A stretch of 64,000 nt of DNA from Ruminococcus sp. (GTDB taxonomy: Bacteria; Bacillota; Clostridia; Oscillospirales; Ruminococcaceae), in the NCBI GenBank assembly GCA_020861185.1, contig JAJBSV010000008.1, positions 186,001 through 250,000 of the forward strand, written 5' to 3'. Shown one piece after another: positions 31,897 to 33,346 of this stretch. A model generated the notes under the pieces. The model worked only from the letters and a program-made list of their open reading frames with translations. It had not been told where the DNA came from and did not search any database. The number at the start of each line of letters is the position of its first letter. The first letter of the stretch is position 1. The position numbers were made by a program, and so were the translations under genes.

Positions 31897-33114
31897 TTAT
31901 AGTCCGCCAGTTGAACCATCACCATAAACTTTTGATTCCGCATCTTTTTCGTTCTGTATGATTGTATCACAAGCGGTTTGTAATAGCTCGTCACCTTTTA
32001 GCCATATGTAAGATATGTAGATTGTATCACAATCGTACGACCAAGTACTTTCAGATGAGTCTTGTATTTTTAGTACAACTTCTGTATCGTTAGCCCCTGT
32101 CCAGTAGATATACTTATATTTATTACCCCAAAAATCACTGTCCTTTTTTGTAGAATCTGGATTACCATACAAGGAAGTTAATTTTGCCTCCAAATCTTTA
32201 GATGCTTTATCAAGATCTAAAGGTTCAAATTCATATCTTGCTCCGTATAGTGCACTATCTTCTTCTGTTTTTGTCAATACGCCATTAACAGGCACGTATG
32301 CAAAGAACAATTTAACATCTTCAGTAGTGTATCCTGCCACTTCTATTTTGCCATTCGTTGTGCAACCAATTATGTTAATGTCATCTCTTTCAAAATTGAT
32401 TCCTTCACTGTCGCCGAGTACTATCTGATCTATCGAATATGTTTTGTAGCCATCACCTACTATTTTCCATAACCCTAATTCACTTACCATCTCTTTTGCG
32501 TCTGCGTAACTAGTCCCCCAAGGAATATCTCTAAAGGTAATTTCAACAGTTTTATCCTCTTTGGTCGTTGCGGTTGTCGTAGCTTTAGTTGTTGTAGTCG
32601 CCTTTGTTGTTGCTTCTGTGGTAGTAGTTGCTTTAGTTGTTGCTTCGGTAGTTGAAGCTTTTGTTGTTTCTTCAACAGTTGTAGTTGTTGCAGGTGTGGT
32701 TGTTACTTCTGTAGTTGTTGTAGTTGAAGCATTTTTTGTTGACCTTGTGATCGTTGTGAGTTCAGGTACGCTTGTCGTAACTTGAGCAGTGGTGTTTGTA
32801 CTCGAAGAGTTTGAATCATCAGTTGTTGAAACAGAGACAAGAGGAATAAGAAAAGAACAAATTGGAACAAACAACACAACTATTACTACAAGTGTTATTA
32901 ACCATGCAACAAATCCTGAACTATGTTTTTTGCTCTCTTTTATGGTTTTTATACCTGATTCATTGTCTTGGGCTAGTTTTGCACCACAGTGCATACAAAA
33001 CTTATCGTCATTAGAAACTTTTCCTCCACACGACGGACAAGTGACGTAATCGGTTGAACTTACATCCTCGGAATTGTTTTCTAATACCTCGTTTTCATTT
33101 TTGTTTTCGTCCAT
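31897..33114 (-). CDS. Zinc-ribbon membrane protein with Thr-rich linker and unknown C-terminal domain
   Basis: 405 residues, function unknown. An acidic N-terminus leads to a zinc ribbon (VTCPSCGGKVSNDDKFCMHC, about 25-44), a membrane helix at about 70-95, a Thr-rich linker of about 90 residues made of TTEATTKAT-like repeats, and a 185-residue extracytoplasmic domain starting ITFRDIPWGTSYADAKE. The layout suggests a cytoplasmic sensor joined to an outer-surface domain. GGAGGAAG precedes the ATG at 33114. The gene is preceded by a structured leader RNA with an intrinsic terminator, so its expression may depend on read-through. Confidence 0.75.
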   Translation of the reverse strand: MDENKNENEVLENNSEDVSSTDYVTCPSCGGKVSNDDKFCMHCGAKLAQDNESGIKTIKESKKHSSGFVAWLITLVVIVVLFVPICSFLIPLVSVSTTDDSNSSSTNTTAQVTTSVPELTTITRSTKNASTTTTTEVTTTPATTTTVEETTKASTTEATTKATTTTEATTKATTTTKATTTATTKEDKTVEITFRDIPWGTSYADAKEMVSELGLWKIVGDGYKTYSIDQIVLGDSEGINFERDDINIIGCTTNGKIEVAGYTTEDVKLFFAYVPVNGVLTKTEEDSALYGARYEFEPLDLDKASKDLEAKLTSLYGNPDSTKKDSDFWGNKYKYIYWTGANDTEVVLKIQDSSESTWSYDCDTIYISYIWLKGDELLQTACDTIIQNEKDAESKVYGDGSTGGL

Positions 33115-33149: not shown

Positions 33150-33311
33150 ATAAAAAAGTGCGCCCACAAGGAACGCACCGAAAAAGTGAGTCCCTCATTG
33201 TCGCCAAACAATCTCAATGCACCACAAAGGAAATATGAGTAAGAGGAAAAACACCTTTTACCAAGGTATTCTTTCCTTTGTGGCGAAAAATATAAATTCA
33301 GATTGTTTGGC
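33150..33311 (-). ncRNA. Structured leader or small RNA with nested 12-bp helices
   Basis: On the minus strand, transcription from the promoter at 33318-33346 should begin at or near 33311, the first base of a perfect 12-bp helix (arms 33300-33311 and 33203-33214). Inside it lies a second perfect 12-bp helix (33272-33283 with 33222-33233) separated by an asymmetric bubble, and an apical hairpin ACCTT/AAGGT. A further hairpin with a T6 tract (33152-33178) follows. It matches no riboswitch, T-box or tmRNA pattern that I recognise. It could be an attenuator for the zinc-ribbon gene or an independent RNA of about 160 nt; its central bubble is loosely reminiscent of 6S RNA. Confidence 0.65.
33152..33178 (-). 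terminator. Intrinsic terminator at the end of the structured leader RNA
   Basis: 8-bp stem (arms GTGCGTTC and GGGCGCAC, with two G-T pairs) and 5-base loop, followed by T6 on the minus strand, 38 bp upstream of the zinc-ribbon gene start. Confidence 0.65.
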
Positions 33312-33317
33312 ACAATT

Positions 33318-33346
33318 ATTATAGCATATACGGTCGTTTTTGTAAA
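33318..33346 (-). promoter_or_regulatory. Sigma-A promoter of the structured leader RNA
   Basis: Minus strand TTTACA, 17 bp, TATAAT. The predicted +1 coincides with the first base of the long helix. Confidence 0.7.

Follow-up and report, generated by a model that had tools for sequence, protein, structure and literature searches.

An apparently undescribed RNA family of gut Clostridia that probably works as a transcription attenuator

Introduction

The c-di-GMP riboswitches stand in many copies per genome before surface genes, and the RNA reported here does likewise. In type III toxin-antitoxin systems, ToxI follows an order of parts that this RNA also has, namely a promoter, a pseudoknotted RNA, a terminator and a gene. 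The copy examined here lies on the minus strand of the window, the whole 64,000-nucleotide stretch of Ruminococcus sp. DNA under study, and represents one member of an apparently undescribed RNA family of gut Clostridia. In agreement with the first-pass annotation, which had recognised no common riboswitch, T-box or tmRNA motif, Rfam 15 at the gathering score matched the element neither in the window nor in 32 homologous loci, T-box, tmRNA and the other curated families included. At E values up to 10, the window element yielded only incoherent weak hits, for instance to microRNA and ctRNA models, and the strongest of these fell on the flanking terminator. We found no description of this RNA in the literature searched, passages of PMC8040213 among it. 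That paper (Fremin and Bhatt 2021) catalogues 3161 intergenic candidates for structured RNAs in human microbiomes; those passages name no such family, and the catalogue may hold this RNA unnamed.

Results

Anatomy of the Window RNA

The promoter proposed in the first-pass annotation, TTTACA-N17-TATAAT, is present with 11 of 12 consensus matches and a TG before the -10 (table 1). A gap of 6 nt separates the -10 from the first base of P1, and from this geometry we infer the start of the RNA to be 33311. Both of the nested perfect 12-bp helices that had been described are likewise found: P1 pairs GCCAAACAATCT with AGATTGTTTGGC and encloses P2, which pairs CCACAAAGGAAA with TTTCCTTTGTGG, at 12/12 positions each. 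As had been noted, the intrinsic terminator follows the helices and precedes the next gene, which encodes 405 aa. The stretch 33311-33150 folds at -61.9 kcal/mol (z -7.2; 0/200 shuffles as good), and the antiterminator, not the terminator, appears in the minimum-energy fold. The earlier reading overlooked the pairing of segment A with segment B and the antiterminator, and did not foresee how large the family is.

Table 1. Features of the RNA locus in the window (positions are those of the whole stretch).
Feature	Position	Strand	Remark or basis
Sigma-A-type promoter TTTACA-17-TATAAT, TG before -10	33318..33346	-	Family-conserved geometry
RNA element, about 160 nt	33152..33311	-	cmsearch: R1 145.3 bits, R2 96 bits
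P1 5' strand GCCAAACAATCT	33300..33311	-	P1 co-varies in family
P2 5' strand CCACAAAGGAAA	33272..33283	-	Family: hypervariable sequence, pairing retained
P3 5' arm (ACCTT), apical hairpin	33263..33267	-	Minimum-energy fold
Segment A GGTAAAAGGTGTTTTTCCTC: P3 3' arm and bulge (putative toehold)	33243..33262	-	A:B pairing tests
P2 3' strand TTTCCTTTGTGG	33222..33233	-	Partner of CCACAAAGGAAA
P1 3' strand AGATTGTTTGGC	33203..33214	-	Partner of GCCAAACAATCT
Segment B GAGGGACTCACTTTTT: partner of A (pseudoknot) or C (antiterminator)	33181..33196	-	A:B, B:C pairing tests
Segment C: antiterminator partner of B, overlaps terminator 5' arm	33168..33179	-	Minimum-energy fold, 11 B:C pairs
Intrinsic terminator stem-loop (C:D)	33158..33178	-	Co-variation
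Terminator T-run, T6	33152..33157	-	Sequence
Gene for 405-aa protein behind the RNA	31897..33114	-	Start codon 33114, 36 nt after RNA; Pfam PF13248

Distribution of the Family

Of 60 related genomes searched by BLASTN, 15 gave matches; this and all genome counts below include the window's own genome. Two covariance models were built from homologous loci, as the first-pass annotation had advised. R1 derives from 17 copies and its structure included B:C, while in R2 (41 copies) only P1 and the terminator are paired; as A:B and B:C are absent from the R2 structure, these pairings are not directly selected by it. The RNA occurs in 20 of the 31 genomes sampled for the genus (R1 and R2 alike), in 15/148 of the taxonomic family (R1, with stricter filters), in 143 of 394 genomes and 73 of 168 genera of the order, and in 100 of 391 genomes and 57 of 223 genera of the class (both R2). 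In the phylum draw, which doubles as a false-positive control, none of the 298 other genomes matched R2, the single match among 299 being the window's own. Among 20 listed negatives of these 298, 11 belong to other classes, and since a quarter of the class sample had matches, the 298 must come mostly from beyond the class.

The large searches scored 7-20 candidates per genome, so that the copy numbers they give are lower bounds. Six genomes for which 150 candidates each were scored hold 7, 8, 12, 12, 12 and 28 matches (E up to 0.001), and the window genome has two copies according to both models. An exact pattern retrieved 25 stretches from named records. Going by their titles, most of these records are of uncultured Clostridia and Oscillospiraceae, and many cite animal rectum, caecum or colon; the label of gut Clostridia rests on these titles. 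The analyses below rest on 163 distinct copies, from which L042 and L065 (weak or partial R1 hits), antisense hits and duplicates were excluded. These are mostly the best-scoring copies and no random draw, so the sample favours high scorers. Segmentation was obtained for 160, that is, for all but L034, L060 and one copy of L177.

Some loci depart from the common form. Four (L062, L063, L064 and L187) hold a longer subtype of 197-212 nt with an extra GGGG..CCC hairpin inside the rod. At L125, four copies lie within about 1.8 kb, partly separated by a duplicated stretch of several hundred bases, an arrangement which suggests tandem duplication. A copy with a lipoprotein gene is found on a 74-kb contig of a viral collection (L197:1384-1552); phage-like elements may carry the RNA-gene unit, though this locus may be host flank. 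Gut-1 RNA (RF01706) shares loci with two copies, at L013:852-926 (0.6 kb away) and L182:6892-6967 (5.2 kb).

Two other identities were considered for the unit. A recently amplified mobile element is disfavoured, the intragenomic copies that we compared having diverged; counting toward it, three species of the genus (L027, L028, L029) carry near-identical RNAs (152 nt, at most one difference) with different genes behind. An integron attC site was set aside because the units have a promoter and a terminator.

Conservation of the Promoter and Helices

A promoter matching at least 9/12 consensus positions lies within 60 bases upstream of 144 of the 163 copies, versus 5.7% of shuffled upstream sequences. 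The spacer is 17 in 147/163, a TG precedes the -10 in 147/163, and in 145/163 P1 begins after a 6-nt gap behind the -10, as in the window. The geometry being kept at a fixed distance, the promoter belongs to the unit.

Conservation of the helices in related genomes, on which the first-pass annotation had made its structured RNA depend, is present, with strong co-variation among homologues. For P1 and the terminator, 98.0% of cells are paired in the alignment of 41 copies versus 24-59% when slid, with two-sided changes at 14 of 20 pairs. MAFFT misplaces P2 and aligns segment A one column apart in different subgroups. For P2, A:B and B:C we therefore compared duplexes formed with the own and with foreign partners, and used an anchored table in place of the alignment. 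The own partner gives the more stable duplex in P1 (-16.4 vs -8.9 kcal/mol), in P2, whose sequence is hypervariable (-21.6 vs -8.1), and in P3 (-8.3 vs -5.6), with 0/1000 permutations as strong in each case; the permutation tests ignore the relatedness of copies.

An A:B Pseudoknot and a Competing Antiterminator

Segment A, made of the P3 3' arm and the adjoining bulge, reads GGTAAAA..GCTC in many copies, the GGTAAAA opening it in 126 of 160. Just past P1, where the next six bases are AGCAAT in 63, AACAAT in 43 and GACAAT in 10 of the 160 copies, lies segment B, often GGAGC..GCATTTTTC and complementary to A. Across the 160 copies, A:B has a mean of -16.8 kcal/mol with the own partner versus -11.5 with foreign ones, a gain equalled in 0/2000 permutations (kinship ignored), and only one copy is weaker than -10 kcal/mol. 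In the gapless register, 90.4% of cells are paired, a share that drops to 44-68% in slid registers. The pairs at positions 5-7 alternate among UA, GC, CG and UG, with 58-70 two-sided changes each in the 160 copies, and over ten positions the two-sided cells number 260 in register versus 26-198 slid, the separation being poorer at slide +2. Some copies illustrate the pairing clearly: L051 has GGCTC/GAGCC swapped for GACTT/AAGTC, and in L182 the A:B run extends to about 18 pairs. The window's own A:B is weaker (-14.6 kcal/mol) and interrupted by an internal loop.

Seven control segment pairs showed own-foreign gains of 0.0-1.0 kcal/mol versus 5.3 for A:B. Three of them passed 5% in 500 permutations (P2a:A with 0, A:C with 2 and P2a:C with 19), P2a:A being a pair whose slices can overlap P3. 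Relatedness therefore has some effect on the own-foreign gain, which amounts to at most a fifth of the gain of A:B.

Segment B also pairs with C in the terminator 5' arm (B:C, own -13.4 vs foreign -9.7 kcal/mol; 0/1000 permutations), and so A:B and B:C co-evolve, as do P1, P2, P3 and C:D. Through shared strands, P3 with B:C and A:B with the terminator are mutually exclusive states. The antiterminator excludes the terminator, whose arm it overlaps, and the two are balanced in energy: with the pseudoknot left out, the median difference between antiterminator and terminator is -1.1 kcal/mol over the 160 copies, and minimum-energy folds hold at least five B:C pairs in 78 copies and at least five C:D pairs in 82. 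Opening P3 costs a median of 6.5 kcal/mol and A:B yields 16.7 (9.25 and 14.6 in the window copy), before the loop cost of the pseudoknot, for which ViennaRNA gives no score.

Genes behind the RNA

In 124 of the 163 copies the terminator is followed, at a median of 23 nt, by an ORF with a ribosome-binding-like site, and 107 of these 124 begin within 60 nt; by this heuristic ORF rule, the terminator stands shortly before a start codon. Of the remainder, 13 precede another copy, 24 are gene-less by the rule and 2 lie at a contig edge. The rule misses some genes, given that at least 7 of the 24 gene-less copies (L033, L079, L095, L170, L175, L191, L194) have an ORF that is short, frame-broken or slightly farther away.

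The 405-aa protein of the window has a zinc ribbon, a transmembrane segment and a Thr-rich linker, its C-terminal part being without a Pfam match. Downstream proteins in general comprise diverse lipoproteins, membrane proteins, ABC ATPases and others. A lipobox or transmembrane segment is predicted in 65 of the 76 with at least 150 aa, versus 107 of 250 background ORFs (P 1.5e-11), the background consisting of the other ORFs of at least 150 aa in the loci retrieved, spurious ones possibly included; for all sizes, it is 76 of 119 distinct proteins (P 0.0002). Ten downstream proteins were scanned in Pfam (E up to 0.01), of which six matched (zinc ribbon, DUF6591, PASTA, YpsA below its cut-off, LiaF and GDSL lipase) and four did not. 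Envelope genes are thus the best reading of the target for the most part. The genes have a common cell location and no evident common pathway, so that no ligand suggests itself.

The gene at the window locus has been swapped: in G013 and G030, identity is 91-95% over the flanks and 87-89% over the RNA stretch, yet the predicted membrane protein behind the RNA differs from the window's. At this locus with the different gene (L004:1439-2341, L005:1441-2348), a 43-45-base terminator-hairpin repeat is found in direct orientation on both sides of the promoter-RNA-gene unit. At eight loci (L013, L147, L152, L176, L181, L188, L192, L193), the RNA is followed by members of a small Cys-rich protein family (67-123 aa, CCCDEC motif), of which a single one was scanned, with no match in Pfam. 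Furthermore, seven copies, of which six count as gene-less under the rule, are followed by an inverted half element (L142:1458, L149:1380 and 1689, L157:1778, L159:1374, L163:1781, L182:1705). It consists of the P1 end and a B-like segment and adjoins another hairpin that resembles an opposite-strand terminator.

Discussion

Proposed Switch

We consider it likely, from comparative sequence data, that the family is a self-contained transcription-attenuation switch, in which A:B would lead to termination and B:C to read-through. Transcription would begin at the first base of P1, and P1, P2 and the apical hairpin P3 would fold into a rod with an asymmetric bubble, A being held half within P3 and half in the adjoining single-stranded bulge. 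B would leave the polymerase just after the rod and meet one of two fates. Its 5' half may catch the bulge of A and its 3' half displace the P3 arm, in a toehold strand exchange; once A:B has formed, C would be free for the C:D terminator and the gene would be off. If P3 instead retains A, B would pair with C, and the polymerase would run through the antiterminator into the gene. A co-transcriptional toehold exchange would be the natural route because the 3' half of A lies in the bulge and the 5' half of B is made first. In this scheme the rod would bend at the bubble and so bring A to B, A:B would correspond to the off state, and folding would proceed in the order given. An effector (metabolite, protein, ion or other RNA) would bias the choice, perhaps by way of the conserved loop GGTAAAA, the joint ARCAAT that follows P1, and the 5' bubble.

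As a more tentative extension, the family might constitute a new riboswitch class of gut Clostridia; this we regard as possible, if somewhat doubtful. The rod would be the aptamer for a cellular signal, with a toehold read-out. Promoter and switch together would form a portable module, present 28 times in one genome, and surface genes would be exchanged behind it; terminated copies may cross-talk in trans via A and B.

Alternative Explanations

The first-pass annotation had proposed either a new cis-regulatory RNA or a free small RNA. The downstream ORF and the co-evolving antiterminator favour the cis option, and we judge the free RNA unlikely. It would be a terminated transcript acting in trans, its 5' end locked in P1, with A and B perhaps pairing between copies and gene adjacency reflecting promoter sharing. 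Such an RNA would account for the 30 to 37 of 163 copies that have no gene directly behind and keep the architecture, and for the arrays at L122 and L188, where 3-4 units stand in tandem and each has a promoter of its own. Gene-less and tandem copies match the others in the median strength of P1, P2, A:B and the terminator, the antiterminator medians being -13.7 in gene-less versus -15.1 in gene-bearing copies; that the former keep their A:B strength is more than a purely cis role demands. In 17 genomes or arrays with at least two copies, A and B pair across copies at -14.5 versus -16.4 within them, and cross pairing is the stronger in three; on average, however, own A:B prevails. Moreover, a plain terminated small RNA needs no antiterminator, and it also counts against a free RNA that in three quarters of the copies the start codon follows closely, within a narrow range of distances.

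The remaining alternatives are much less probable. A plain leader, i.e., a stable 5' stem-loop and an ordinary terminator with no regulated switching, would fit with there being no known effector, and a 5'-terminal helix stabilises transcripts; given that three mutually exclusive helices all co-vary and that the two tail states are energetically balanced, we find this reading very improbable. We give still less credence to a ToxI-like antitoxin RNA, in which promoter, pseudoknotted RNA and terminator would precede a toxin gene. The order of parts agrees and arrays occur, but the downstream proteins are diverse, none of the sample of ten scanned in Pfam belongs to a toxin family, and the array units each carry their own promoter and terminator. 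A 6S-like RNA mimicking an open promoter, a shape that the first-pass annotation had contemplated, is the faintest prospect. A rod of about 160 nt with an asymmetric internal loop recalls it, yet RF00013, included in the Infernal search as had been recommended, has no match at the element, and a separate 6S candidate lies elsewhere in the genome (G000:C12:96604-96829, i.e., L001:1501-1726), scoring 38.2 bits and thus short of the cut-off of 46.4. Further points against it are the copy number, which reaches 28 in one genome, the leader position before genes, and helices that are the alternatives of a switch.

Significance and Comparison with Known Systems

If the attenuation switch operates as proposed, gut bacteria would possess an extensive level of gene control that has yet to be mapped, since the family occurs in roughly one in four of the genomes sampled from the class, reaches 28 copies in a genome and has no entry in Rfam 15. 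Its apparent targets are for the most part genes for the envelope and for lipoproteins, where the cell meets its host and neighbours, and the signal of the switch would point to physiology not yet known.

With 6S RNA the family shares a rod with an asymmetric bubble, but it differs in being a multi-copy leader with switching helices and in lacking a match to that model at the element. From ToxI it is set apart by downstream proteins that include no toxin family in the sample and by units that each have a promoter and terminator of their own. Its likeness is to terminator/antiterminator riboswitches and protein-sensing leaders, with which it has in common a 5' leader, exclusive helices and a gene just downstream. 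Unlike the known attenuation leaders, it has no Rfam 15 match at the element and no known ligand, comes in arrays of complete units with a near-invariant built-in promoter, and would switch by a toehold-type exchange in which a tail segment competes for a strand of an apical hairpin. On these grounds, the window RNA probably works like a transcription attenuator.
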